From Erythrobacteraceae bacterium Alg239-R51 (GTDB taxonomy: Bacteria > Pseudomonadota > Alphaproteobacteria > Sphingomonadales > Sphingomonadaceae), in contig CAMZOI010000001.1 in NCBI GenBank assembly GCA_947331495.1, forward strand, positions 1,364,001 through 1,428,000: 64,000 nt of DNA. The letters run 5' to 3'. The position numbers were made by a program, and so were the translations under genes. This document shows, in pieces, positions 25,223 to 63,475 of this stretch. The notes below the pieces were generated by a model. The model was not told the DNA's origin. It did no database searches and saw only the letters and a program-made list of their open reading frames with translations. How positions within the stretch are numbered: the first letter of the stretch is position 1; each line of letters begins with the position of its first letter.

Positions 25223-25248
25223 GGAACGCTCGAAGCGGGTCCTGCGTT
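25223..25248 (+). promoter_or_regulatory. EcfG-type general stress promoter of the CsbD gene
   Basis: GGAAC (25223-25227), 17 bases, then CGTT (25245-25248) matches the alphaproteobacterial EcfG (PhyR-NepR-EcfG) consensus GGAAC-N16-17-CGTT exactly. The CsbD start lies 54 bases downstream. CsbD-like proteins are classic general-stress genes, which supports the call. Confidence 0.68.
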
Positions 25249-25302
25249 ATCTCTTTGTAAGCGCGCAAAAACCTGCGCCGCAATGTGACTAGGAGATACA
25301 TC

Positions 25303-25473
25303 ATGGGTGAACTGACAGAAAAAGCCAAAGGCAACGCCAATGAAGCGGTTGGAAATATGAAGCAGAAATCCGACGATCCAAAAACCCGCGCTGAGGGTCG
25401 CTCGCAAGAGAAGAAGGGTGAAGCTCAGCAATTGAAGGGCGAAGTCGAAGGCAAGCTCGGCAACGACGTCTGA
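25303..25473 (+). CDS. CsbD family stress protein
   Basis: This 56-residue, very hydrophilic protein starts MGELTEKAKGNANEAVGNMK and has the CsbD repeat pattern (KGKxxEAxGxxK...), with KAEGRSQ-like and LKGEVEGKLG segments. CsbD proteins accumulate under stress; their biochemical role is unknown. AGGAGA is seven bases before ATG 25303; an upstream in-frame ATG (25285) would precede the ribosome binding site. It has a consensus EcfG promoter and a terminator. Confidence 0.9.
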   Translation: MGELTEKAKGNANEAVGNMKQKSDDPKTRAEGRSQEKKGEAQQLKGEVEGKLGNDV

Positions 25474-49417: not shown

Positions 49418-50488
49418 ATGCAGCAGGTTCATGTCGACAAGACCGATATAACGCAAGCCGAACTGGTCGAGCTTGAACAGGGCGCGCTTGCCCCAGACGC
49501 GGTCAGGCTCGAGGTCGAGAGCTTCTCGGTCACGAGCAACAACGTGACTTACGCGGTGGTCGGTGATGGATTCGGCTACTGGAATTTCTTTCCTGCCCCG
49601 GAAGGCAAGGGGATCGTCCCGATGTGGGGGCACGCTCGCGTTGTCGAGAGCAACCATCCCGCCATCGCGGTCGGCGAACGAGTTTACGGCTACCTGCCGA
49701 TGGCGAGCCAACTGGATGTCGTGCCGGGCAAGGTCTCGAAGAGCGGTTTTGTTGATAGTGCCGAGCATCGTCAGCCGATGAGCCCGATCTACAATCAGTA
49801 TTCGCGGCTTGACGGCGATCCCGAACACGATCCGGTGCGCGAGGGCGAGCGGATGATTTTCGGTCCGCTGTTCAAGACCGGGTTCCTGATCGAGTATTTC
49901 ATGCGCTCCGAGGAATGGTTCGGTGCGCAGAACCTCGTTATCACCAGCGCATCGTCGAAAACCGCAATGGGTCTGGCCAGCGTCGCCAAGCACCGTTCGC
50001 CCGATATCCGGCGCCTGGGACTGACGTCTCGCGGCAATGTCGAATTCGTGAAAGCAAGCGGACTTTACGATGATGTGCTCTCTTATGACGCCGTGGCAGA
50101 TCTAACCCCAATTTCCAGCGTAGCGGTCGATTTCGCAGGCAATTCCAGCCTGTTAGGCAAGATTCACGAGCATTTTGGCGATGCGCTGAAGTATTCGTGC
50201 ATGGTCGGGGCGACGCATATCGAGGAGCGGGGCGGCGGTACCGAAGATTTGCCCGGACCGAGACCCACGCTGTTTTTCGCGCCCGACCACGCGGTAGCGC
50301 TGTTCAAGGAATTGGGCCCTGAAGGGGCCGGACGGCAAATGGCAGATAGCTGGCGCGCCTTTCTCGCCGATGCAGGCGACAGCGTGACAATCGAGAGACA
50401 TGGCGGGCTCGAAGCGGCGCGCGACGTGTTCGTCCGGATGGTTGGCGGAGACGTGGACCCTGCCAAGGGAATTGTCATCGAGCCCTAG
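49418..50488 (+). CDS. DUF2855 family protein
   Basis: The 356-residue protein matches the uncharacterised DUF2855 family: RLEVESFSVTSNNVTYAVVG, FGYWNFFPAPEGKGIVPMWG, GERVYGYLPMASQLDVVPGK, and IFGPLFKTGFLIEYFM. The order (a GroES-like N-terminal part, then a nucleotide-binding-like core LVITSASSKTAMGLASV) resembles medium-chain dehydrogenases without the usual GxGxxG, so an oxidoreductase role is inferred only. AAGGGAGAG precedes the ATG. Its stop shares CTAG with the stop of the converging oxidoreductase gene. Confidence 0.87.
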   Translation: MQQVHVDKTDITQAELVELEQGALAPDAVRLEVESFSVTSNNVTYAVVGDGFGYWNFFPAPEGKGIVPMWGHARVVESNHPAIAVGERVYGYLPMASQLDVVPGKVSKSGFVDSAEHRQPMSPIYNQYSRLDGDPEHDPVREGERMIFGPLFKTGFLIEYFMRSEEWFGAQNLVITSASSKTAMGLASVAKHRSPDIRRLGLTSRGNVEFVKASGLYDDVLSYDAVADLTPISSVAVDFAGNSSLLGKIHEHFGDALKYSCMVGATHIEERGGGTEDLPGPRPTLFFAPDHAVALFKELGPEGAGRQMADSWRAFLADAGDSVTIERHGGLEAARDVFVRMVGGDVDPAKGIVIEP

Positions 50489-51495
50489 ATCTCCACGGCG
50501 ATCTTGCCAAAGTGCTTGTTCGCTTCTTGGTGACGGAAGGCGTCGGCCAGGTCGGCGAGCGCGAATGTATCGCTGATGACCGGCTTGATGCCGTTCGCCT
50601 CGATCGCGGCGATCATGTCCTGCTGCATCGCGCGGCTGCCGACGGTAAGGCCTTGCACGGTCAGGTTTTTCGAGAACAGGAGCGCTGTCTGGACCGGGCC
50701 GGCCATGCCGGTCAGAACGCCGATGAGCGAAACGTGCCCGCCAACGCGCGCGGCTAGCATGGATTGATCGAGAGTTCCCGGTCCCCCGACCTTGACCACG
50801 CAATCGACGCCGCGTCCGCCAGTCATTCCCAGCGCCTTGGGGCCCCAAGCTTCGATTTCCTTGTAGTTGATGACGTGGTCGGCACCGAGTTGCTTCACTC
50901 GTTCCAGCTTTTTATCGGAGGAGCTTGTTGCAATGACCGTCGCGCCCGCCGCCTTGGCAAACTGCAATGCGAAAATCGACACGCCGCCCGTTCCCTGAAC
51001 CAGCACGGTGTCCCCCGGTTTGAGAGCATAGTCTACGAACAGAGCGCGCCATGCCGTCAGTCCGGCGCAGGTCAGCGTGGCTGCCTCAGTATGGCTAAAG
51101 CCTTCCGGCGCGCGGGTGAACGCGGTCGCCGGCGCGGTAATGCTTTCGCGCGCAAAGCCGTCGATCCCGTCGCCCGGCACGCGGGTGAATGCACTTTGCG
51201 GAGGTGGACCGGTGAGCCATTCGGGAAAGAAGGTACTTACGACAGTGTCGCCACTGGCGAATTCGGTCACGCCTTCGCCAATGGCTGTCACAACACCTGC
51301 GCCGTCCGACATGGGGATGCGGCCCTGTTCGGTAGGGATCATTCCCTTGACGACGGCAAAGTCGTGGTAGTTCAGCGAACTGGCCTTCAGATCTACCGTG
51401 ATTTCGCCCGGGCCAGGCCGTGGCGCATCATCGATATCGACCAGTTCAAGACTGTCCAGTGTGGAAGGTGATGTACCTGTTCTGATAGCTTTCAT
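50485..51495 (-). CDS. Zinc-independent medium-chain dehydrogenase/quinone oxidoreductase-like protein
   Basis: The 336-residue MDR protein has the GroES-like N-terminal domain (SSLNYHDFAVVKGMIPTEQG, PMSDGAGVVTAIGEGVTEF) and a Rossmann domain with VLVQGTGGVSIFALQFAKAA, SSSDKKLERVKQLGADHVIN and GGRGVDCVVKVGG. The catalytic-zinc Cys/His set of alcohol dehydrogenases is absent, pointing to an NADPH-dependent reductase of the quinone/enoyl type. I chose ATG 51495, overlapping the deacylase stop by four bases; the frame is open upstream. It is the last gene of the phaC operon. Confidence 0.88.
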   Translation of the reverse strand: MKAIRTGTSPSTLDSLELVDIDDAPRPGPGEITVDLKASSLNYHDFAVVKGMIPTEQGRIPMSDGAGVVTAIGEGVTEFASGDTVVSTFFPEWLTGPPPQSAFTRVPGDGIDGFARESITAPATAFTRAPEGFSHTEAATLTCAGLTAWRALFVDYALKPGDTVLVQGTGGVSIFALQFAKAAGATVIATSSSDKKLERVKQLGADHVINYKEIEAWGPKALGMTGGRGVDCVVKVGGPGTLDQSMLAARVGGHVSLIGVLTGMAGPVQTALLFSKNLTVQGLTVGSRAMQQDMIAAIEANGIKPVISDTFALADLADAFRHQEANKHFGKIAVEI

Positions 51496-53246
51496 TCCGC
51501 TGCCTCCGCCAGTTCGATACGTTGCGGCCCGCGGATCAGCCCGCCGGGGGCCTTCCCTGTCCATTCGCCTTCGCGAAAGGTAACCACTCCGTTCTTGATC
51601 GTCGCCACGTAACCGTCGGCCTTTTGCAACAGCCGTTTGCCCCCTGCGGGAAGATCGAAAGCGAGCCATGGTTTGCCAAGCTTGATCCTGTCCATGTCGA
51701 TAATGTTGAGATCGGCAAGGTAGCCCGGCGCGATCACTCCGCGATCATCCAGGCCGTAAAGCCGGGCGGTGTCGGCACATTGGCGTTTGATTGCATTTTC
51801 GAGCGTGATGCGCGCGCCGCGCTTGCGATCGCGCACCCAGTGTTCGAGCATGAAGGTCGGGCTCGCCGCATCGCAGATCGTGCCGCAATGCGCGCCGCCA
51901 TCGCTGAGCGAGTTGACGGTATCGTCGGCGTGTTGAAGCGGAAGCAGAAATTCCAGATCCCCGTCCGAATAATTCAGGATGGGAAAGTAGATGAACCCTT
52001 TGGCATCGTCGCGGCAGAGCATCTCGTACGCATAGTCCTGCGGATCGATACCAGCCGCCTTGGCGCGCGCGTGAACTGTGGCATCCTGAGGCGGTTCGTA
52101 GTCGAAATCGTCGTCCATCTCGAACATCAGGCCCCAGCCATTGGTCAGGGCGAAGACGACTTCCTTCGTATCTTCCGCAACTTCGGAGTAGTCGTTCTGT
52201 TCAGCCAGTAGTTTCGCCTTGAACTCCGGATCGAGCAGGCGCGCTTTTTTCTCATCCCACGGCAAATCGGCCATCGCCTGCCAGCTTGGCCGCAGGATGA
52301 ACGGGTTTACCGTGCCTTGCCACGCCATGATGATGCCATTTCCGCGCAGGGCAATCTGCGCGACGATGTTCGCGCCATTGTCGTTCTGCGCGCGCATCGT
52401 GGCGATCTGTTCGTCGAGCGGAAGTTCCTTGGCGATCGATTGCAATGCGGCGAAGGTGACGGGAAGGCCGGTCTCCCGGCTGAGATCGCCCATCCATTCG
52501 AATTCGTTCCATTCGCGCCGCAGATCGCTCGCCATTTCGAACACGCCATGCCCGGCGCGGCCCAGAGCGCGGCCGAGTTCGACCAGTTCGTCAGCCTGCG
52601 CGGTGGTGCCGGGAACCAGCACGCCTTCGACATCCTTGTGCAGAACGGTGCGCGAGGTGGAAAAGCCGAGCGCCCCGGCGCGCACGCCGTCCTCGACGAT
52701 CCGAGACATCTGCGCGATTTCGCTTTCGCTGGGAACGACGCCGGGTTCCTCGCAGCCGCCCAGCACATAGGCGCGCACTGCGCCATGCGGGACGTGCGTG
52801 CCGACGTCGACCGTGCGCGGCAGCTTCTCCAGCTCGTCGAGATATTCGGGGAACGTCTCCCAGTTCCACGTCATGCCTTCGGCCAGCGCGGTGCCGGGAA
52901 TGTCTTCTACGCCTTCCATGAGACCGATTAGCCAGTCATGCTGGTCCGGGCGGGCCGGAGCGAAGCCAACGCCGCAATTTCCCATCACGACAGTGGTGAC
53001 GCCATGCCAACTCGACGGTGCCATTTCCTGGTCCCACGTCGCCTGTCCGTCATAGTGCGTGTGAATATCGACGAAGCCCGGCGTGACGACCATGCCCGTT
53101 GCATCGATTTCCTCCGCGGCGTCGCCAGGTACGGTGCCGACTTCGACGATCAGACCATCCCTGATGGCAACATCGCCGGAAAATCGCTTTTCCCCGGTTC
53201 CGTCGACAACAGTGCCATTGCGAATTACCAGATCGTATGTGGGCAT
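51492..53246 (-). CDS. Amidohydrolase of the N-acyl-D-amino-acid deacylase family
   Basis: The 584-residue protein has the D-aminoacylase/amidohydrolase-3 layout: an N-terminal beta domain ([20 protein letters not shown]), metal motif [14 protein letters not shown] (near residue 60), [29 protein letters not shown] and the C-terminal [17 protein letters not shown]. It would hydrolyse N-acyl groups from D-amino acids or related amides; the true substrate is unknown. It lies 73 bases after the transporter gene and overlaps the oxidoreductase, all on one strand behind phaC. Confidence 0.9.
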
Positions 53247-53319
53247 GCGGTGCTCCTCTCTCCTCGCGGGAAGGTCTCACATTGCAACCGATGAGTCCAG
53301 CACGTGTGCGTCCGCAGAC

Positions 53320-54810
53320 TCAGGCCGCTTCGCGTTCCGGCATTCGCACCGATATCAGGATCGCCAGCCCGATCAGGAAAAGGATCGAGATGGAAGCCAT
53401 GCCGATCCGCTGGTCGGTGAACCACAAGGTGAAATATTCGACCAGGAGCGGCCCCATCCACACGGTGATCGTCCCGGCAATAGCGTACAGACCGAAGAAT
53501 TCGCCGCTGCGGCCTGGTGGAGCGAGCGCGACGAGCATAGTGCGGCTCGAGGAAATACTGGCCGTGGCAGTGACGGCGACCACGCTGATAAGCGCCAGAT
53601 AGCTGAGGTCCGACAGCGTCTGGAATGCAAGGCCGTCCCAGACCTGGTAATTGTCGATCGTTCCGAACAGCAGGCTTTCCTGCGTGATGCTCAACTGCAC
53701 CGCCAGGGTGACGACCATTCCGGTTATTTCGATGATAAGCGCCCGCTTGACCCCGATCCGTTCATCGAGCCATCCGCCGAACAAGCCGCCTCCGAAGGCG
53801 CAGGCACTGGCGAAAATGGCGTAGCAGAGCATTTCGAGAAAGCCCCAGTCCAAGAACAGCGCGACGTATACCGCCCCCAGCGCAAGCAGGGCTGCCATGC
53901 CGTCTGCATAGAACATGCGCGCAAGCAGGAACTTCATCAGTTCGCGATATCGCGCTGCTTCGCGCAGCGTGGTCATCACACCGCGCGTGCCGGCTGCAAA
54001 TGCCTTGCGCCAGCTTGCCCCGGGTGTTCCGGGATCTTGGGCGAACAGGAAGAAGGGTATCGAGAACAGGGCGAGCCAGACCGCGCAGATCGGCCCGGCA
54101 ATCCGCATGTGTTCGAAGCTTTCGACATCGATGCCGAATTGAGCGCTGGCGAACGGCCAGCCGACTAGGCTTGGCAGCACGAACAGGAGTACCAGCGCCA
54201 CGAAGATAAGGGTTGCGGCAAGATTGCCGAGGCCCAGCCCGAGACCCGAAATCATCGACAACCGTCTGGGCGCGCCCGCAACGCTCAGCATCGCGTTATG
54301 CGTGACTTCGGAATAGGTATAGCTGACATAGGCGACCACCAGCAGGGTCATGATTACCGGCACCGGAAATCCCTGCCCCCCGGGCATGGCGAACCACAGC
54401 AGGGCCGAACAGATCACGATCGAGCCGAGAAATAACGCCAGGATCGGTTTGAGCCTGCCACCCCGGTCGAGCGCGGCACCCAGCACCGGCGCGGTAAGAG
54501 CCGCGATGAACCCGGCCCACTTGGTCACCGAAGCGATGGTTGCCTGACCCTGCGCATTGGCGGCAGCGGTCGCCTGGTCGGGCGGGAGTGCATCGAGCGT
54601 ACCGCCTGCCAGCAGGTCCGCCCCGATGATGTCCCGGGCGAAAAAGGGCGCGAAGATGTAGATGACGATGAGGATGTAATACGGGTTGCGCGCCCATTCG
54701 AAGATTGCCCAGGCAAAGCCGGTCCGGCCGAGAGCCCCGCCTTCGCCCTGGAAGGCGCGCGGGGGCTGGTTCGCAAGCGGGTTGGCGGCGAGGGCGGGGT
54801 CGGAGGCCAT
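53320..54810 (-). CDS. MFS transporter, UMF1/ATG22 type
   Basis: The 496-residue protein has twelve hydrophobic segments and the UMF1-family N-terminus AWAIFEWARNPYYILIVIYI (compare AW.lYDWAnS), with a loop motif ALDRGGRLKPILALF. The two halves are separated by a cytoplasmic loop near residue 250. Substrates of the bacterial family are unknown; the yeast relative Atg22 exports amino acids from the vacuole. It starts 23 bases after the depolymerase gene and is in the same operon. Confidence 0.9.
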   Translation of the reverse strand: MASDPALAANPLANQPPRAFQGEGGALGRTGFAWAIFEWARNPYYILIVIYIFAPFFARDIIGADLLAGGTLDALPPDQATAAANAQGQATIASVTKWAGFIAALTAPVLGAALDRGGRLKPILALFLGSIVICSALLWFAMPGGQGFPVPVIMTLLVVAYVSYTYSEVTHNAMLSVAGAPRRLSMISGLGLGLGNLAATLIFVALVLLFVLPSLVGWPFASAQFGIDVESFEHMRIAGPICAVWLALFSIPFFLFAQDPGTPGASWRKAFAAGTRGVMTTLREAARYRELMKFLLARMFYADGMAALLALGAVYVALFLDWGFLEMLCYAIFASACAFGGGLFGGWLDERIGVKRALIIEITGMVVTLAVQLSITQESLLFGTIDNYQVWDGLAFQTLSDLSYLALISVVAVTATASISSSRTMLVALAPPGRSGEFFGLYAIAGTITVWMGPLLVEYFTLWFTDQRIGMASISILFLIGLAILISVRMPEREAA

Positions 54811-54833
54811 CTGTGCGTGCCGTCCGCGCCCGT

Positions 54834-55694
54834 TCAGGCCGCGCGGTCCAGTTCTGCCTGCGTACCCGGAGCATCAAGGAATTCGCGCAACATGGCCACG
54901 CTTTCATCGGAATGGGTCAGCAGGAACAGGTGCCCCCCGTCCTCGAAGACTTCCAGGCGCGAATTGCGGATCGCAGCGTTAAGAATTTTGCCGTTGACCG
55001 CCGGCACGATCTGGTCGTCCCCGCCCATCATGATCAGCACTTCCTTGTCCATGAAGGGCAAGGCAGGAAGGCTGGTCCAGCCGAGCATGGCGATGAGCTG
55101 GTAAAGATAACCGCGCGGGGAGGGCGGTTTCAGGCGACCGACATGGTCCGCCTTGCTTCCGGGCCGTTTGGTCATGCCGCCATAGAGCGTCATGAAATGC
55201 TCGTTCATGAATTCGGGATCAATATAGCGGCGCGGGTCGGCCATCTTGCTCAGCGCCTTAGGATTGCCCGGCACCATGAGCATGCCCGCGGTTGTCGCCG
55301 CCAGCACCAGCCGCCGCGTCCGCTTGGGGTGCTGCAGGGCGAAATGCTGCGCCATCGCGCCGCCCCAGCTCACGCCCATCACATCAGCGACTTCGACTCC
55401 GAGCTGGTCCAGTACGCGCGAAGCAGTCCAAGCCATGATGAACGGATTGTAGGGCACGCTTGGATCGGGACTTTCGCCGGTGCCAGGCATGTCGAACATG
55501 ACGAAACCGCGCTCTGTCATGCGTTCGGCAAGCGGACTTACTGCCTCGATATTAGCGCCGATGCCGTTGAAGAACAGGATCGGGGGATAGTCGCTCGGCT
55601 CGTTCAGTCGCCAATGAGCCACGCGCAAGGTGCGCCCACCTGCTTCGATCAACTCGATCGTAGCGGTCATCGGCTCGTCTTTGGATACAGTCAT
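54834..55694 (-). CDS. phaZ: Intracellular medium-chain-length PHA depolymerase-like hydrolase
   Basis: The 286-residue alpha/beta hydrolase resembles Pseudomonas PhaZ along its length: ILFFNGIGANIEAVSPLAER, FDMPGTGESP, nucleophile VMGVSWGGAMAQHFAL (Ser near residue 110), LVLAATTAGMLMVPGNPKAL, DPRRYIDPE, LYGGMTKRPG, Asp in MGGDDQIVP and His in EDGGHLFLLTHSDE. Such enzymes mobilise stored polyhydroxyalkanoate. GAAGGG precedes the ATG. It follows phaC by 19 bases, the Pseudomonas phaC1-phaZ order, which strengthens the call. Confidence 0.87.
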   Translation of the reverse strand: MTVSKDEPMTATIELIEAGGRTLRVAHWRLNEPSDYPPILFFNGIGANIEAVSPLAERMTERGFVMFDMPGTGESPDPSVPYNPFIMAWTASRVLDQLGVEVADVMGVSWGGAMAQHFALQHPKRTRRLVLAATTAGMLMVPGNPKALSKMADPRRYIDPEFMNEHFMTLYGGMTKRPGSKADHVGRLKPPSPRGYLYQLIAMLGWTSLPALPFMDKEVLIMMGGDDQIVPAVNGKILNAAIRNSRLEVFEDGGHLFLLTHSDESVAMLREFLDAPGTQAELDRAA

Positions 55695-55713
55695 TCGCGG
55701 CCCTTCAAATCGT

Positions 55714-57402
55714 TCAACAGGCTTCCATTACGTAGAGACCGGGAGCGGGGTCCAGCGGTTCGTGGTTCTTGTTCCCCATTTTCGAAGGCGCCTTCGTCTT
55801 CTCGCCGCCACGTTCCTGCAGCCAATCGATCCAGAGCGGCCACCAGCTTCCGGCGACTTCCTGCGTTCCCTTCAACCATTCGTCGGCTGTCCCGGGAAGC
55901 TTCTTGCTGCTGTTTTTTTGGACGTAGTATTTGGCTTTCGGATTGCCGGGCGGATTGAGGATCGCCTGCATGTGGCCCGAATGACTGAGGACGTAGGTCA
56001 CGTCCTTCGAGCCGAATAGCTGGGTCGAGCGGTAGGTCGCCTTCCACGGGGTGATATGATCCGTCACCCCGCCAAGGATGAACAGATCGCTCGTCACCTT
56101 CGACAGGTCGATCTTATGGTCCACCATTTCGACTTCGCCTTTCCTGGTGAAGGCAAGGGTTTCGTAGATGGTCAGAAAATCGCCCATCAGGCTAGCCGAC
56201 AGATTGGTCGCATCCGCGTTCCAGAACAATACGTCGAATGCGGGCGGATCCTGGCCAAGCAGGTAATTGTTGACGACGTAGTTCCAGACAAGGTCGTTGG
56301 GTCTCAGCCAGGCGAACCCGCGCGAAAGATCATCGCCCTTGATGATGCCTTTCTTGTCGGCGCGGCGTCGGGCCAGCGCAAGTCCGTTGTCACTGATCAG
56401 TGAACCGGCTTCGATATCGTTCTGCTTCGGATGAAGCACACAGACCATCAGGGTCAGGGCACCGAGCAGATCGTCTTCGTCGGCCGCCATCTTGCTCGCG
56501 AGCATCGCGGCCGTCTGCCCGCCCGAACACCCGGCCGACACGTTCACTTTCTTGCTGCCGGTAATCGAAGACACCGCTTCCATGGCTTCCCGGCAGGACC
56601 GGACATAATCGGCCATGTCCCATGCGCCTTGTTCCCGAGTAGGATTCTTCCAGCTGATGACGAACGTCTGGATGCCGTTGTCGAGCTGGTATTTCACCAC
56701 CGACTTCTCCGGCGAGAGATCGTTGATGTACATCTTGTTGATTTGTGGAGGGATGGTCAGCTGGGGAATCGCATAAACCTCCTCGGTCGTGGGCGCGTAC
56801 TGGATCAACTCCATTATGTCGGTACGCAACACGACCGATCCCTTCGAAGTCGCAACGTTCTCGCCCAGTTTGAACGGCTTCTTGTCGACCTGGCTGACCA
56901 TACCCTTGTTGTGAACCATGTCGTCATAGGCGTTCTTTAGCCCCTTCATCAGCGACAACCCGCCGCTGGTGATCGCCATTTTCTGGGCTGCCGGATTGCC
57001 CGCCAGGGTATTGGTAGGTGCCACGGCATCGATGATCATGTTCGAGACGAACCGTGCCCGGTCGCGCTCCAGTTCGTCCAGTTCTAGGTCTTCAAGCCAT
57101 TGCGAAGCGCCCTTCTGTACCGCAAGATAGTATTGCATCCCCGCTCGCATGAACGGATTGTATTGCCAGGCGGGGTCCTGGAACCGCTTGTCCTTGGGGT
57201 GCGGTGCAAGATCGCTCTTGCCGGTCATGATCTTGACCATGTCCTGACCCATCGCCTGCCCATGCTTCATCAGCCGCTGCGGATCGGAAGCGGTTTCGCG
57301 CAACATGAGCGCGACCGCGCCGAAGATGTCTTCCCGGGTGAGACCCACGAGCGGCCCCAGGGCACTGGTATGTTGGGCGGCTTCATTTTCGAGCTGGGTC
57401 AT
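55714..57402 (-). CDS. phaC: Class II-like poly(3-hydroxyalkanoate) synthase
   Basis: PhaC polymerises 3-hydroxyacyl-CoA into storage granules. The 562-residue protein has the lipase-like box SAGCSGGQTAAML with the catalytic Cys near residue 296, Asp in LGGVTDHITPWKATYRS and His in LSHSGHMQAILNPPGNPKAK. Several stretches match my memory of Pseudomonas class II synthases: DPAWQYNPF, APTNTLAGNPAA, VPPQINK-like IPPQINKMYINDLSPEKSV, LRPNDLVWNYVVNNYLLG and the C-terminal WLQERGGEKTKAPSKMGN. There is no phaE or phaR subunit gene adjacent, so class III/IV is excluded. GAGAGG precedes the ATG. A consensus EcfG promoter lies upstream. Confidence 0.93.
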   Translation of the reverse strand: MTQLENEAAQHTSALGPLVGLTREDIFGAVALMLRETASDPQRLMKHGQAMGQDMVKIMTGKSDLAPHPKDKRFQDPAWQYNPFMRAGMQYYLAVQKGASQWLEDLELDELERDRARFVSNMIIDAVAPTNTLAGNPAAQKMAITSGGLSLMKGLKNAYDDMVHNKGMVSQVDKKPFKLGENVATSKGSVVLRTDIMELIQYAPTTEEVYAIPQLTIPPQINKMYINDLSPEKSVVKYQLDNGIQTFVISWKNPTREQGAWDMADYVRSCREAMEAVSSITGSKKVNVSAGCSGGQTAAMLASKMAADEDDLLGALTLMVCVLHPKQNDIEAGSLISDNGLALARRRADKKGIIKGDDLSRGFAWLRPNDLVWNYVVNNYLLGQDPPAFDVLFWNADATNLSASLMGDFLTIYETLAFTRKGEVEMVDHKIDLSKVTSDLFILGGVTDHITPWKATYRSTQLFGSKDVTYVLSHSGHMQAILNPPGNPKAKYYVQKNSSKKLPGTADEWLKGTQEVAGSWWPLWIDWLQERGGEKTKAPSKMGNKNHEPLDPAPGLYVMEAC

Positions 57403-57442
57403 GGGTCACGTTTCCTCTCGATTTTACATTTGTTATGCAGCT

Positions 57443-57475
57443 TGAACGAACGGTCGGGGCGGCCCGTTCCGTTCA
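57443..57475. repeat. Inverted repeat between fprA and phaC
   Basis: TGAACG (57443-57448) and AACGG (57449-57453) pair with CCGTT (57464-57468) and CGTTCA (57470-57475), an 11-bp stem with a single bulged base. It starts within the fprA stop codon and has no T-tract. It overlaps the EcfG-type promoter, so it may be a 3' hairpin of fprA, a regulatory site, or both. Confidence 0.5.
57445..57470 (-). promoter_or_regulatory. EcfG-type general stress promoter of the phaC operon
   Basis: On the minus strand GGAAC (57470-57466), 17 bases, then CGTT (57448-57445) fits the consensus GGAAC-N16-17-CGTT exactly. Transcription would start near 57436, about 34 bases before the phaC ATG. The same spacing is used at the CsbD promoter in this window. 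Confidence 0.6.
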
Positions 57476-58777
57476 TCCGCGCGCCGCTATCATGCTTTCG
57501 ATGTCGATGAACTTCTCGCGCGGTGCGCCTTCCCGGGCCGCAGCGATTTCTGCCTCCTCGATCTTCTGCCAGTCGCGAAAGGTCACGATGTCGAGCCCAC
57601 GTTCGGCGGCCAGTTCGTCAAACCCTTCGCGTCCGCGCTTGTGCGAACCAGTGCCGATATCTTCGTCGACAATGTCGATCACGGCATACCCGTCGGGTCG
57701 GTTGGTGCCGATCGTGCCCGACGGTCCGCGCTTGGCCCAGCCGACGCAATAAAGGCCGGGCAGGATGCGCCCGTCTTCGTTCGCGAACCGGCCCGCACGT
57801 TCATCGAACGGGACACCCTCGATCGCCGAAGACCGGTAGCCGATACAGCTTATGACGATGTCGGCGGGGATTTCGTAGGTCGCGCCGGTCGCAACGGGCC
57901 TTCCATCCTCGAGGTGGGTCTCCTCGACCTCGATCGCCAGCACTTTTCCGTCATGGCCTCGCAAGGCGTTCGGACTGGCGAAGAAATCGAACTCGATGGC
58001 GATTGGCTTGCCGCGATACGCCTCGTCATTGGCAGCAAATTCGCGTAGGAGGTTCACCGATTTGCGCACCCCCGGCTCCAGGTCGGCGTCCTCGTCTGCC
58101 GGGGGCAAGTCGCCCGGATCGACCTTGGGGCCGCCGCGTTCCAGGTCCCGCAACTCCCCAAGTTCCTTGGGCGTCATCATGATCTGGTGCGGTCCGCGTC
58201 GGCCAAGAATGGTGATCGTTTCGAGATGTGATCTCGCCAGCCTGTCGAGCGCATGAGCGACGATGTCCGAACCTTCGAACTCCTCCGGTGTCTTTGCCAG
58301 GATGCGGGTCACGTCGAGCGCCACATTGCCCATGCCGATGATCACCGCATGCCGTCCCGAAAGATCCGGATCGAGCGTCGCAAATTCGGGATGGCCGTTA
58401 TACCAACCGACGAATTCGGCACTTCCGAAGACATTGCCAAGCTCTACCCCCTCGACGGACAGGCGGCGATCATGCGGGGCGCCGGTTGCGAAAATGACGG
58501 CGTCGTAAAAAGCCTGCAATTCCGTAACCGATATGTCCCCGCCCACGCTCACATTGCCGGCAAAGCGCACCGTATCGCCCTTCGCTACCTTTTCGTATCG
58601 GCGGGCTACCCCTTTGATCGACTGGTGATCTGGCGCAACGCCGGTGCGGATCAAGCCGAAGGGAACCGGCAACCGATCGAAAATATCGATCCGGCAGTCC
58701 TCTCCCCATTTCTTCGCCGCCGCTTCGGCGGTGTAATAGCCTGCAGGGCCCGACCCCACGATCGCGATGTGCCGCAT
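57473..58777 (-). CDS. fprA: Ferredoxin-NADP+ reductase, adrenodoxin reductase type
   Basis: The 434-residue FAD enzyme transfers electrons between NADPH and ferredoxin. It has IAIVGSGPAGYYTAEAAAKK at the N-terminus, the signature PFGLIRTGVAPDHQSIKG, the NADPH motif HAVIIGMGNVALDVTRIL, ITILGRRGPHQIMMTPKELG, and PSGTIGTNRPDGYAVIDI in the C-terminal FAD region. This matches FprA/adrenodoxin reductases. No ferredoxin gene is adjacent. It precedes phaC by 70 bases but the latter seems to have its own promoter. Confidence 0.94.
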   Translation of the reverse strand: MRHIAIVGSGPAGYYTAEAAAKKWGEDCRIDIFDRLPVPFGLIRTGVAPDHQSIKGVARRYEKVAKGDTVRFAGNVSVGGDISVTELQAFYDAVIFATGAPHDRRLSVEGVELGNVFGSAEFVGWYNGHPEFATLDPDLSGRHAVIIGMGNVALDVTRILAKTPEEFEGSDIVAHALDRLARSHLETITILGRRGPHQIMMTPKELGELRDLERGGPKVDPGDLPPADEDADLEPGVRKSVNLLREFAANDEAYRGKPIAIEFDFFASPNALRGHDGKVLAIEVEETHLEDGRPVATGATYEIPADIVISCIGYRSSAIEGVPFDERAGRFANEDGRILPGLYCVGWAKRGPSGTIGTNRPDGYAVIDIVDEDIGTGSHKRGREGFDELAAERGLDIVTFRDWQKIEEAEIAAAREGAPREKFIDIESMIAARG

Positions 58778-58965
58778 CCTCGTTCCCCCGAAGATTTCCT
58801 ACCTGCCCTGATGCCCGTCATGAACCGTGCTGGCAAGCACTGGCTGGGCGCGCCGCCTCATGCCCAACATGGTTATGCCTTTCGTAAGAAATTGCGGATA
58901 CTTACCACCGAAAGGGCGCTCAGTCGCGTGCCAGAACATTCCGAGCGGGAGTCCGGAGCATTACC

Positions 58966-61167
58966 ATGGCAGGTTTCTTCTCGCGGGCGATGGCGACGGT
59001 CGAACGAGACGAAGCGCCTGCGAACGCACCGCTCGTTCCGATCGACGCAACCGATGCCGTGCGCCGCGTCGAATTGCTCGACAGCTTCGAGAATGCCGGC
59101 CTTGGTTGGTTCTGGGCCACCGATGCTCAGGGCAGGCTGATCTACCTTTCGCCGAACGCCGCCGAAAAACTGGGCTGGGAACACGAAGGCACGCTCGGCA
59201 GGCCGCTGACCGACCTGTTCATCCCGGACGAAGATGGCGATCCGGACCGGGCGGAGCGACCGCTGGCCTTTCTCCTAAGCGCCCGTAATTCGATCAGCCA
59301 GCTCCACGTGCGCCTCGCGACGGAGAAACAGGTGGTGTGGTGGGAAATCGCGGGGAAGCCTCAATTCGATTCTAGGCAGCGCTTTACCGGTTATCGTGGC
59401 AGCGCCAAGGACATCACGGCCAGCCGCGAAACGCAGCTGGATGCCGAAAGGTTGGCGCAATACGATTCGCTTACCGGTCTGGCCAACAGACACCGCATGA
59501 CCAAGCGGTTGTCCGCAACGCTGAAGGCCTATCGCAACTCGAAGCGCTCCTGCGCCCTGCTGATGCTCGATCTCGACAGGTTCAAGCAGGTCAATGACAC
59601 GCTGGGCCATCCGGCGGGCGACGAACTGCTCAAACAGGTCGCGGCACGGCTAGAACGAATTGTCGGCAGCAAGGGCGAGATCGGCCGCCTCGGGGGCGAT
59701 GAATTCCAGGTCATGTTGCCGGACATGGATGACCGCGGAATCCTGGGCGATCTGGGACAGCGCGTGATCCAGATGATTTCGCAGCCCTATTCGGTCAATG
59801 GCTCGCGTGCGATCATCGGCACATCGGTTGGCATCGCGATTGCGCCCTATGACGGGCTGGATACCGAGGAACTGGTCAAGGCGGCCGACCTGGCGCTGTA
59901 TGCTGCCAAGGGGGGCGGGCGCGGCCAATACCGATTTTATTCGAGTGATCTGAAGGACGGGGCCAAGCACCGCAGACAGGTCGAGGAAGATCTGCGCGAC
60001 GCCATCGATAAGGGTGAGCTCGCCATGCACTACCAACCGATCGTGTGCGCGAAGACGCATGAGGTGAAATGCATGGAAGCGCTCATGCGATGGGAGCATC
60101 CCGAGCGGGGAAACATCTCTCCGGGCGTATTCATTCCCGTTGCCGAAGAAATGGGCTTCATCAAGAGGCTCGGCGATTGGGCCCTGCTGGAAGTCTGCCG
60201 CCAGGCAGTCGATTGGCCAGTCGACCTGCGTGTGGCGGTCAATGTCTCGGCGGTGCAATTCGCGCATGACGATTTTGCGCAGTTCGTTGAGCGGGCGCTC
60301 AACCAGTCTGGCCTGGCGCCCGATCGCCTCGAACTTGAAATCACCGAAAGCGTGTTCCTGGGGGATACCGGGCGCGCGCAGACGATGTTCAAGGATCTCA
60401 AAAGCCTGGGTGTGCGACTTGCACTCGACGACTTCGGGACCGGTTACAGTTCGCTCAGCTATCTGAGCCAAGCGCCCTTCGACAAGATCAAGATCGATCA
60501 GAGCTTCGTGCGCGGCGCGACCGAGAAGGGCAACAACAATGCCGCGATCATGAGCGCGATCGTCAGCCTGGCCGAAGCGCTCGACATGGAGACGGTTACC
60601 GAGGGCGTGGAGACAAAGGACGAGTTGCGGTTGGTTACCGAACGTGGGACCAGCCATATCCAAGGGTTCATCTTCTCCCGCGCGATGGGCAATGACGACG
60701 TGATTGACCGGCTAGAAAAGGGCGAACTGAAATTCACCGCCCGCGGGCCGGCAAAGTACCGGGCGGATCGCAAGACCGTCTTTCGCAGGATTGGCCTGAT
60801 ACACGAGGATTTTCGATATCGTGTGGTCATGCGCAACCTGTCGAAAACAGGTGCAGCAATCGAAGGCTTGCTTGATGTCCCGGTAGGCACCCAGATCGTG
60901 CTCGATCTTGGTGGTGGCCAACTTGCAGTTGCGGTCGTGCGACGTTCGAACAGCTATTCGCAGGGTGTAGAGTTCGAAACCGCGCTCATCAGCAACGGGG
61001 CTGACGGGCTGTGTACGCGTCACCGCGTATCGCCATACGATATCGAAGCTGCAGGGCGCCCGTTGTCCTCCCTGCCGCAGGACCCCTATGCTCTGATGGC
61101 TGGCGGTCAGACGGGTGCGGCGGGCCGGCGAAAATTCGTGGAGGTGGACATAAACAATCCCAGATAG
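58966..61167 (+). CDS. PAS-GGDEF-EAL-PilZ protein, both enzyme sites intact
   Basis: The 733-residue cytoplasmic protein has a PAS domain (about 37-155, ENAGLGWFWATDAQGRLIYL), GGDEF (about 160-330, RLGGDEFQV at 241-249, no RxxD inhibitory site), EAL (about 345-590) and a C-terminal PilZ domain (600-700). EAL catalytic residues are all present: CMEALMRWEHP (EAL at 371-373), VNVSAVQF, LEITES, LDDFGTGYSSLS, KIKIDQSF, TEGVET and HIQGFIF. PilZ shows RKTVFRR and RNLSKTGAAIEG, the first with one residue more than the usual RxxxR. It probably makes and degrades c-di-GMP with feedback through PilZ. Confidence 0.93.
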   Translation: MAGFFSRAMATVERDEAPANAPLVPIDATDAVRRVELLDSFENAGLGWFWATDAQGRLIYLSPNAAEKLGWEHEGTLGRPLTDLFIPDEDGDPDRAERPLAFLLSARNSISQLHVRLATEKQVVWWEIAGKPQFDSRQRFTGYRGSAKDITASRETQLDAERLAQYDSLTGLANRHRMTKRLSATLKAYRNSKRSCALLMLDLDRFKQVNDTLGHPAGDELLKQVAARLERIVGSKGEIGRLGGDEFQVMLPDMDDRGILGDLGQRVIQMISQPYSVNGSRAIIGTSVGIAIAPYDGLDTEELVKAADLALYAAKGGGRGQYRFYSSDLKDGAKHRRQVEEDLRDAIDKGELAMHYQPIVCAKTHEVKCMEALMRWEHPERGNISPGVFIPVAEEMGFIKRLGDWALLEVCRQAVDWPVDLRVAVNVSAVQFAHDDFAQFVERALNQSGLAPDRLELEITESVFLGDTGRAQTMFKDLKSLGVRLALDDFGTGYSSLSYLSQAPFDKIKIDQSFVRGATEKGNNNAAIMSAIVSLAEALDMETVTEGVETKDELRLVTERGTSHIQGFIFSRAMGNDDVIDRLEKGELKFTARGPAKYRADRKTVFRRIGLIHEDFRYRVVMRNLSKTGAAIEGLLDVPVGTQIVLDLGGGQLAVAVVRRSNSYSQGVEFETALISNGADGLCTRHRVSPYDIEAAGRPLSSLPQDPYALMAGGQTGAAGRRKFVEVDINNPR

Positions 61168-61258
61168 GGCAACCGGAATTGATCGCGTTAGGCCTATGCT
61201 AACCATTACCCGATAGATCAGACGGCAATTAGGTGCGTTGGAACAAGGCGGAACGACG

Positions 61259-63475
61259 ATGGGGGCGATGCCCTTTTCCGATCTATTCAGAAGCAGAAAG
61301 ACGCCGACAGACGATGTCGCGTCGGAGCCATCCTCCGCGTCTGCGTCCACGATGTCGTCCGCCGATAAACTTCTGGTAATTGAGGACATCGAACAGTCCG
61401 GCCTGACAGGTTTCTGGGCCACAGACTCGCAAGGCCAGATCACCTATCTCAGCCCTGCGATAGTCGAACGGCTCGGCGGCACGTTCGAGATGGTTATCGG
61501 AACCTCGCTTCAGCATCTGCTGGTTCCCGCCGAAAACGAAGGCGACGGTCGCTCGCTTGGCTTGAAGCTCGCTACCCGAAAGAGCTTCTCCAATCTTACC
61601 GTCCAGGCGAGTGACGAGAAGCATGAGCTGGTGCTGCGCCTCTCGGGCAAACCTTTATATAACCGGGAAGACTTCGCTGGCTTCCGGGGAAGTGCCAGCG
61701 ATGTGACCGAAGAATTTCGCAGCGAGGAAGAAGCGAAGCGGCTTGCCAAGTTCGATTCGCTGACCGGCCTTGCCAACCGTCACCGGATGGAACAGCGGAT
61801 CAATTCGACGCTTCACGCCTTCAAAACCGCAAAGCGATCGGCAGCGCTGATGATGCTGGACCTCGACAAGTTCAAGCAGGTCAATGACACGCTCGGACAC
61901 GCGGCGGGCGATCAATTGTTGCAACAAGTTGCGGAAAGATTGCGCAGCGTCGTTGCGGGCCGGGGCGAGATCGGCCGACTGGGCGGCGATGAATTCCAGG
62001 TCCTCGTGCCCGACATGGATGATCGCGGAGAACTCGGCGAGATTGCCAAGAAGATCATCCAGATACTCTCGCAACCCTATTCGGTGGAAGAAGGCCGGGC
62101 GATCATCGGATGCTCCGTAGGGATAGCGGTCGCGCCCTACGACGGGCTCGGATGCGACGAGCTGACCCGAGCGGCGGATCTTGCGCTTTACGCCTCCAAG
62201 AATGGGGGCCGGGGGCAGTTCCGCTTCTATGCCGCCGATCTCGAGCATGAAGCCAATTTGCGCAAGCGAATGGAAGAAGACCTCGCTCAGGCGATGGATG
62301 ATGGAAAGTTCACGCTGGAATATCAGCCCGTCGTATCCCTTTCAGACAACCGCGTCGTCGGTCTGGAAGCGCAGTATTGCTGGGACGACGAGGAGCGTGG
62401 ACGGGTCACACCGGACACCTTCCTGCCGGTAGCGGAGGGCAGCCGCCTGATCATCCCGATTGGCGAGTGGGCAATTCGCAAGGTCTGCGAACAGGCACTA
62501 GAATGGCCCGGGTCGCTTCGCGTTTCGCTGCACGTCAGCCCGTTGCAGTTCGAAGCGTCTGGTTTTGTCGAAAGTGTTGAGCAGTCGCTGAAAGATACCG
62601 GTCTCGATCCCGCCCGGCTCGAACTTCGCCTGCCGGAATCGGTTCTGCTGGGCGATGCCGCCAAGATCGAAGCCGCTCTGGCAGCCTTGTTCAAGCTCGG
62701 CGTGCGACTCACGCTCGATCAGTTCGGCAGCGGGCTTTCCTCGCTCAGCTATTTGAGGCGCGCACCGCTCGACGCCTTGCGCATCGGCGAAGGCTTCTTC
62801 GAACCGATGATGGGTAGCGATCTGGGCGATATAGAGCTGGTCCGTGCAGTCGTCGCCCTTTCCGCGGCAATGGGAATGGAAACGCTCGCCTCGGGCGTTC
62901 ATGCAATGGATCTGATGCGGGAACTCAAGGCGCTCGGGGTCGATCAGGTCACCGGCTTCGTCTATTCCGACGCGCTGTCGCCGGACCAGGTGCGCGAGGA
63001 ACTGGAGGAGGGCGAATGGACGCTGGCGCCTTCGGATAACGGTGCCCAGCGGGCCACCCGGCGAACCGTGTTTCGCAAGATCGGCGTCATTCACGAAGAT
63101 TGCTACTACGATGTCACCCTGCGCAATCTTTCGAGGTCCGGTGCGATGATCGAAGGGTTGGAGGACGTCCCGACGGGAACGTTGTTCGTGCTCGATTTCG
63201 GGCAGGGTCAGCTGGCGGTAAGCAGGGTCAAGCGTTCGATGAACGATACGCAGGGCGTGGAGTTCGAACAGGAACTCGTGGATGATGGCGCTGGTGGATT
63301 GTGCACGCGTCATCGCGTCAGCCCTTACGAACTGGCCGCGGCCGGCGCGCCGCTTCAGGCATTGCCGCCAGGCAAGTACGCGATGGCCCAGGGTCTGGCG
63401 AGCACCGAAGGCCTTGCCCAGTTCAAGCTGTCCGGCAATGCTCCCAAACAAAGCGGCAGGAAGGTTGCCGCTTAG
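61259..63475 (+). CDS. PAS-GGDEF-degenerate EAL-PilZ protein (tandem paralogue)
   Basis: The 738-residue paralogue of the preceding protein has the same domain order: PAS (about 42-155), GGDEF (intact RLGGDEFQVLVP near 240), EAL (about 345-590) and PilZ (600-700, RRTVFRK and RNLSRSGAMIEG). The EAL domain has lost most metal and catalytic residues: VNVS is LHVS, EITES is RLPES, DDFGTG is DQFGSG, KID is RIG, AEGVE is ASGVH and the late QG is TG. Only the first Glu (GLEAQY) and one Asp remain. It is inferred to be a diguanylate cyclase with a non-catalytic EAL. ATG 61259 has AAGGCGGA upstream. Confidence 0.92.
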   Translation: MGAMPFSDLFRSRKTPTDDVASEPSSASASTMSSADKLLVIEDIEQSGLTGFWATDSQGQITYLSPAIVERLGGTFEMVIGTSLQHLLVPAENEGDGRSLGLKLATRKSFSNLTVQASDEKHELVLRLSGKPLYNREDFAGFRGSASDVTEEFRSEEEAKRLAKFDSLTGLANRHRMEQRINSTLHAFKTAKRSAALMMLDLDKFKQVNDTLGHAAGDQLLQQVAERLRSVVAGRGEIGRLGGDEFQVLVPDMDDRGELGEIAKKIIQILSQPYSVEEGRAIIGCSVGIAVAPYDGLGCDELTRAADLALYASKNGGRGQFRFYAADLEHEANLRKRMEEDLAQAMDDGKFTLEYQPVVSLSDNRVVGLEAQYCWDDEERGRVTPDTFLPVAEGSRLIIPIGEWAIRKVCEQALEWPGSLRVSLHVSPLQFEASGFVESVEQSLKDTGLDPARLELRLPESVLLGDAAKIEAALAALFKLGVRLTLDQFGSGLSSLSYLRRAPLDALRIGEGFFEPMMGSDLGDIELVRAVVALSAAMGMETLASGVHAMDLMRELKALGVDQVTGFVYSDALSPDQVREELEEGEWTLAPSDNGAQRATRRTVFRKIGVIHEDCYYDVTLRNLSRSGAMIEGLEDVPTGTLFVLDFGQGQLAVSRVKRSMNDTQGVEFEQELVDDGAGGLCTRHRVSPYELAAAGAPLQALPPGKYAMAQGLASTEGLAQFKLSGNAPKQSGRKVAA

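Follow-up and report, generated by a model that had tools for sequence, protein, structure and literature searches.

A predicted EcfG-type general stress promoter upstream of an accessory PHA synthase gene, with superimposed EcfG and sigma70-like forms among related genomes

Which sigma factor is likely to act on the PHA synthase gene phaC of Erythrobacteraceae bacterium Alg239-R51? In the 64,000-nucleotide stretch of DNA analyzed here, referred to as the window, phaC lies on the minus strand behind an fprA-like oxidoreductase gene, and only 70 nt separate the fprA stop codon (57473-57475) from the phaC start codon (ATG at 57402). Both boxes of the motif GGAAC-N17-CGTT fall within this gap and on the same strand, with the fprA stop codon 2 nt before GGAAC. 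A sequence-only reading had proposed that this motif is a general stress promoter of the EcfG type, a group of sphingomonad promoters that presumably corresponds to ECF15. Our comparative evidence strongly supports the prediction of an EcfG-type promoter on phaC. Taken as a whole, we consider it very probable that this promoter drives the accessory phaC together with a depolymerase-like gene, and that an ancestor carried an EcfG promoter superimposed on a sigma70-like one.

The genes of the locus and the elements discussed below are collected in Table 1. The phaC product, which scores below the cut-off of the curated class II model TIGR01839 and is therefore termed class-II-like only, contains PhaC_N and alpha/beta-hydrolase domains, as well as a GCSGG box and the motifs TDH and SGH, which we take to be catalytic. 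The gene for the depolymerase-like hydrolase starts 19 nt after phaC and lies directly downstream of it in all 20 named relatives of the clade, making it a probable operon partner, while the Atg22-like MFS gene is a possible third gene of the same transcript. In the 20 named loci L009-L028, the distance from the end of an fprA relative to phaC is 51-110 nt. On the other side of fprA, two tandem GGDEF-EAL-type genes occupy window positions 58966-63475 (plus strand); the first is divergent from fprA and has PAS, GGDEF and EAL matches, and the second displays the same domain pattern by eye.

Table 1. Coordinates of genes and sequence elements in the window.
Feature	Position	Strand	Basis or remark
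-35 box GGAAC	57466..57470	-	Read in sequence; invariant in 17 aligned sites chosen for having GGAAC
-10 box CGTT	57445..57448	-	17 nt after the -35 box; exact at N17 in 24/44 genus genomes with accessory phaC, window included
Predicted transcription start region	57435..57438	-	Inferred from ECF promoter geometry, 7-8 nt after the -10 box
Imperfect hairpin overlapping the promoter	57444..57478	-	RNA folding, -20.1 kcal/mol, z -3.27
phaC, class-II-like PHA synthase, accessory in the genus	55714..57402	-	PF07167, E 1.8e-58; TIGR01839, 620.6 bits (class II cut-off 855.4)
Depolymerase-like alpha/beta hydrolase	54834..55694	-	TIGR02240, 202.2 bits, below cut-off 250.6
Atg22-like MFS protein	53320..54810	-	PF11700; downstream of phaC in 10/20 relatives
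fprA-like NAD(P)/FAD oxidoreductase, upstream of phaC	57473..58777	-	PF07992
Sigma70-like fprA promoter TTGCCA-N17-CAT	58811..58836	-	Sequence; possible read-through source for phaC
Comparison site GGAAC-N17-CGTT	25223..25248	+	36 nt before the CsbD-like ORF 25285-25473

The assignment to the EcfG type follows from the form of the element: both boxes are exact, the spacer of 17 nt lies within the 16-17 nt range, and the motif stands on the same strand less than 100 nt from its gene. The distance from CGTT to the phaC ATG is 42 nt, and a predicted start 7-8 nt past CGTT would give a leader of about 34-35 nt, in agreement with the 34 bases calculated earlier. The likeness to a second promoter, assigned by the sequence-only reading to csbD, also holds, as the comparison site has the same N17 form; the ORF behind it is only CsbD-like, with 28.8 bits under the Pfam cut-off of 40. 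According to the main texts of two sphingomonad studies, the EcfG motif is GGAAC-N17-20-GTT in Sphingomonas melonis, where it is over-represented at no more than 100 bp from starts (PMC6599016), and GGAAC-N16-CGTT in Sphingopyxis granuli, whose targets include csbD, mscS and HWE kinase genes (PMC7083833). The element before phaC thus resembles the EcfG promoters of S. melonis Fr1 and S. granuli TFA in both boxes, in spacing (16-17 nt) and in its distance of less than 100 nt from the start codon.

The most serious rival is that the motif is a chance match, with phaC transcribed by read-through from fprA or from an unrecognized sigma70 site. The bare nine-base pattern is indeed common: GGAAC-N16-18-CGTT occurs 80 times in the genome (N16 21, N17 32, N18 27), fewer than the 124 matches of a reversed control, and is not over-represented. 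This explanation also draws on the sigma70-like promoter of fprA, with its gap of only 70 nt to phaC, and on a TAAAAT stretch at 57421-57426, although RNA initiated from the latter would begin at the ribosome-binding site. Against it stands a positional enrichment that is specific to spacing. When the surroundings of all 80 matches were retrieved and genes called in them, 18 of the 32 N17 matches proved to be non-coding and followed within 100 nt by a gene on the same strand, versus 0.68 expected, as did 9 of the 21 N16 matches (0.45 expected), whereas N18 was not enriched (1 of 27 upstream of a same-strand gene within 100 nt, 0.57 expected). The expectations derive from the 2.1% of window positions that qualify as upstream sites, a background taken from the window alone with a custom gene finder that overlooks short genes (csbD and nepR, for example). 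The observed-to-expected ratio for N17 implies that nearly all upstream N17 sites should be real, the phaC site among them. This genome differs from S. melonis and S. granuli in that upstream N17 sites outnumber those with N16 (18 versus 9).

Comparison with relatives, suggested along with the original proposal, confirmed that the boxes are conserved. The accessory phaC is present in 44 of the 60 genus genomes searched; beyond the 24 with the exact motif, eight have a single -10 change (TGTT or CATT), giving a relaxed total of 32/44, all at N17. The remaining 12 lack even the relaxed motif, and EcfG-type control is not universal in the genus. The sole other exact spacing in this sample, N13, arises in the window itself, whose site contains a further CGTT. 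Among 80 named loci, the exact motif occurs upstream of phaC in 12, always as N17 and at no other spacing from 8 to 26, and it recurs in 2 of the 29 family loci L091-L119, a set drawn in part from the same genomes. Across 17 aligned sites, pairwise diversity is 0.00 in the -35 box, 0.06 in the -10 box, 0.54 in the spacer and 0.66-0.68 in the flanks, box values that are biased by the selection of these sites for having the boxes. Conservation at N17 only, across spacers that have diverged, and the upstream enrichment of N16 and N17 sites lead us to reject a chance match, which we regard as very unlikely.

In phylogenetic terms, the 15 rows with the exact motif (12 named loci, the window, L091 and L092) all fall within one group of 23 on a first, quick phaC tree, where this group has a support of 86, and the exact motif is found in none of the 60 phaC rows outside it. 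In a second, careful tree of other rows, which leaves out 5 of the 44 genus rows for want of a full gene and takes in ten further ones, the base of the group forms an open fork, also joined by L034, L043 and L050, which have no EcfG motif.

The regulators expected for such a promoter are encoded in the same genome. NepR (E 9.4e-16) is adjoined by an ECF sigma factor, a sigma70 r2/r4 protein that we call EcfG on account of its neighborhood with nepR, and PhyR combines sigma-like and receiver domains. An N16 site lies upstream of nepR-ecfG, and it went uncounted in the positional statistics because the gene finder missed nepR. Further genes with upstream sites encode PhyR itself, an HWE kinase, DJ-1/PfpI, fasciclin and Fpg-like proteins, an S30AE protein of the ribosome-hibernation type and, identified by eye, an MscS-like protein; two of the ten scanned proteins behind sites matched no Pfam family. 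NepR, the adjoining ECF sigma factor, PhyR and the csbD-like, MscS-like and HWE kinase genes as likely targets are all shared with S. melonis and S. granuli. The target described here, a PHA synthase/depolymerase-like pair, sets this locus apart and goes unnamed in both main texts, that of S. granuli containing no match for phaC, PHB or polyhydroxy (PMC7083833) and that of S. melonis none for polyhydroxy, PHB or phasin (PMC6599016). A real promoter used by another ECF sigma factor instead of EcfG would be compatible with the sequence, in which paralogous ECF factors cannot be told apart, and the main text on S. granuli describes two EcfG paralogues (PMC7083833). The element nevertheless has the form of the published EcfG motif and of the sites upstream of nepR-ecfG and phyR in its own genome, and this alternative appears less probable still.

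A general stress promoter before phaC, as first proposed, is thus supported by genome-wide position and spacing statistics, by conservation at a fixed N17 and by the presence of the regulators. The PhyR/NepR/EcfG partner switch is well established. By this route, PhyR would remove NepR from EcfG under stress, the EcfG-RNA polymerase would bind GGAAC-N17-CGTT, and phaC would be transcribed with the downstream depolymerase-like gene from about position 57437.

The sequence-only reading had also described an 11-bp inverted repeat over the promoter and the fprA end, possibly serving a second regulator or terminating fprA. A stable fold does cover the promoter, but the repeat is imperfect: the 41-nt fold (57440-57480) has 10 outer pairs, two of them read as G-U, and 4 inner pairs, and ungapped arms of 10 nt with at most one mismatch are absent from the site. 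Its z-score depends on the frame (-3.27 for 41 nt, -2.27 in the frame used for relatives, -1.61 for 101 nt). Part of the hairpin follows from the complementarity of the boxes themselves, since GGAACG and CGTT pair over the four bases AACG/CGTT, and its position upstream of the predicted start means that only transcripts reading through from fprA could contain it. The site has no T-run and no terminator-like match, with 7 such matches in 50400-59100 versus 7.6 expected. We therefore reject the hairpin as a terminator or operator on the missing T-run, the missing conservation and the partial box complementarity. The broader idea that the GGAAC/CGTT repeat is an operator or an RNA hairpin (for a second regulator, as an fprA terminator or as a 3' end stabilizer) and no promoter is the least likely of the alternatives: the 41-nt fold is the most stable among the 29 EcfG-type promoter regions of the genome, but 0.86% of 41-nt stretches in the window fold as stably, and 14 other promoters of relatives keep the boxes and their spacing but not the fold (z -1.74 to 0.79).

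Many relatives have a different promoter form before phaC. In the 80 named loci, with spacings of 16-18 tried, TTGC-N17-CAT precedes phaC in 50, of which 44 belong to the 60 not in the group of 23 and 2 also carry GGAAC-N17. The 44 phaC promoters of the genus comprise 25 with the EcfG form only (18 exact, 7 near), 8 with the sigma70-like form only, 7 in which both are superimposed and 4 with neither, so that TTGC-N17-CAT, alone or superimposed, is found in 15. One locus (L267, on the same contig as L020) was reassigned from sigma70-like only to none, reducing that class from 9 to 8, as its match is N16 and reads into the fprA end. The superimposed EcfG/sigma70-like promoter is reported here as new, and all seven genomes have it in one fixed register, with TTGCA[AT]TC directly before GGAAC. 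In the window, the region before phaC contains no TTGC-type -35 with a CAT-type -10 at 16-18 nt. With the EcfG form only, the window's phaC would be expressed at a low level in unstressed cells and would depend on read-through from fprA.

We read TTGC-N17-CAT as sigma70-like, keeping RpoH as an alternative. Of 18 relatives, 15 have the element upstream of fprA as well (20 loci were given, two with fprA cut off), and in these 18 regions it occurs at no other spacing from 12 to 22. A TTG-type -35 with a 17-nt spacer, as in alphaproteobacterial sigma70 (RpoD) promoters, thus precedes fprA and the phaC of many relatives, whereas the window's phaC is without it. That the element might instead be a heat-shock (RpoH) or PhaR site was considered. 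Against the sigma70-like reading speak its rarity in full form, TTGCCA-N17-CAT being found in only 2 of 180 upstream regions of the genome, and a strict E. coli-type promoter scan that returned nothing in 50400-59100, the fprA element included. In S. meliloti, moreover, sigma70 and RpoH promoter sets overlap, according to the available text (PMC3616915). The sigma70-like assignment was retained because the same form and spacing recur before fprA and because CTTG-N20-[CT]AT shows a spacing preference, occurring in 10 of the 180 regions, drawn mostly from the surroundings of GGAAC matches, versus 1-6 at 12 other spacings.

The distribution of these forms suggests how the promoter may have evolved. 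The row nearest to the window is L010, with the sigma70-like form only, on the first tree and the dual L234 on the second, which includes more rows and places the window with weak support (80/87) among rows that are mostly dual. Dual rows also surround L240 (support 100/97), in which both EcfG boxes are broken and the sigma70-like form stands alone. The ancestor probably carried EcfG boxes over TTGC-N17-CAT, and its lineages would have kept both, the sigma70-like form only or the EcfG form only. The presence of the EcfG form requires 6 changes on the first tree or 7 on the second, and these changes, together with several weak branches, make repeated gain of the EcfG boxes a possible alternative. 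The distribution could further reflect a sigma-factor handover in progress, in which a housekeeping TTGC-N17-CAT promoter gained EcfG boxes in a fixed register and descendants dropped either set. Toward this we lean only slightly, since the base of the group of 23 is an open fork on the second tree. If true, closely related species would differ in the control of the same storage gene, which would be housekeeping, stress-induced or both.

Two individual loci deserve separate mention. The phaC promoter of L240 closely resembles those of L236, L237 and L243, and L240 alone has both EcfG boxes damaged with the sigma70-like ones intact, which may represent a natural loss of stress control. In L238, GGATC-N16-CGTT overlaps the sigma70-like promoter; it is a possible degenerate EcfG site and was counted as sigma70-like only.

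The wider suggestion that carbon storage as such is under EcfG is too broad: it would apply to the accessory phaC, which has the promoter form, and does not extend to the second synthase of the genome. This class I-like PhaC (622.3 bits, just below the cut-off of 622.65) is encoded in 60/60 genus genomes. Of 30 regions upstream of this gene, only that of the window's own genome has a relaxed EcfG site (GGAAC-N17-CATT, 102 nt upstream). We reject EcfG control of the class I-like phaC because the site is missing from all 29 relatives examined, a sample of the 59 other genomes that carry the gene; it is thus the accessory synthase that has the stress promoter.

On contig C2, the class I-like phaC adjoins a phasin gene and is about 10-14 kb away from nepR-ecfG; the genome also encodes the regulator PhaR. 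Within about 15 kb of this one contig (C2:188000-203000) lie nepR-ecfG, phyR, the phasin gene and the class I-like phaC. The promoter of the phasin gene, TTGACT-N16-TATTTT (L200, C2:199000-204500), is located between two GTGCAGTGCAC-like palindromes, possibly PhaR operators, and similar repeats are found in L205, L206 and L209.

Links between general stress regulators and storage polymers are known from other bacteria. As summarized in the available text of a review on PHA regulation (PMC9049629), RpoS acts on the PHB genes of Azotobacter vinelandii through the activator phbR and may act negatively on phaC1 in Pseudomonas putida. The predicted arrangement resembles that of Azotobacter in that a general stress sigma factor would favor storage polymer synthesis, and differs in that the factor is of the ECF type and its site lies directly on phaC instead of acting via phbR. 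The same text has no match for "extracytoplasmic" or "general stress" (PMC9049629). In Methylorubrum extorquens, a strain mutated in phaR showed altered expression of homologues of phyR and nepR, as stated in the available text (PMC6520949); this likewise ties PHA regulation to the general stress response in an alphaproteobacterium, with no EcfG action on phaC described there. Accumulation of PHA by mixed cultures has been associated with Qipengyuania, according to the accessible part of the report (PMC9003127). EcfG control of a PHA synthase is named in no paper among the matches listed, a statement that applies to the papers apart from their supplementary tables.

Our findings lead to the prediction that, in these marine bacteria, the general stress response turns on one of two PHA synthases. 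Such control would link the storage polymer to stress survival. Because close relatives carry one and the same promoter in EcfG-only, sigma70-like-only or superimposed form, the evolution of sigma-factor switching can be tested directly.
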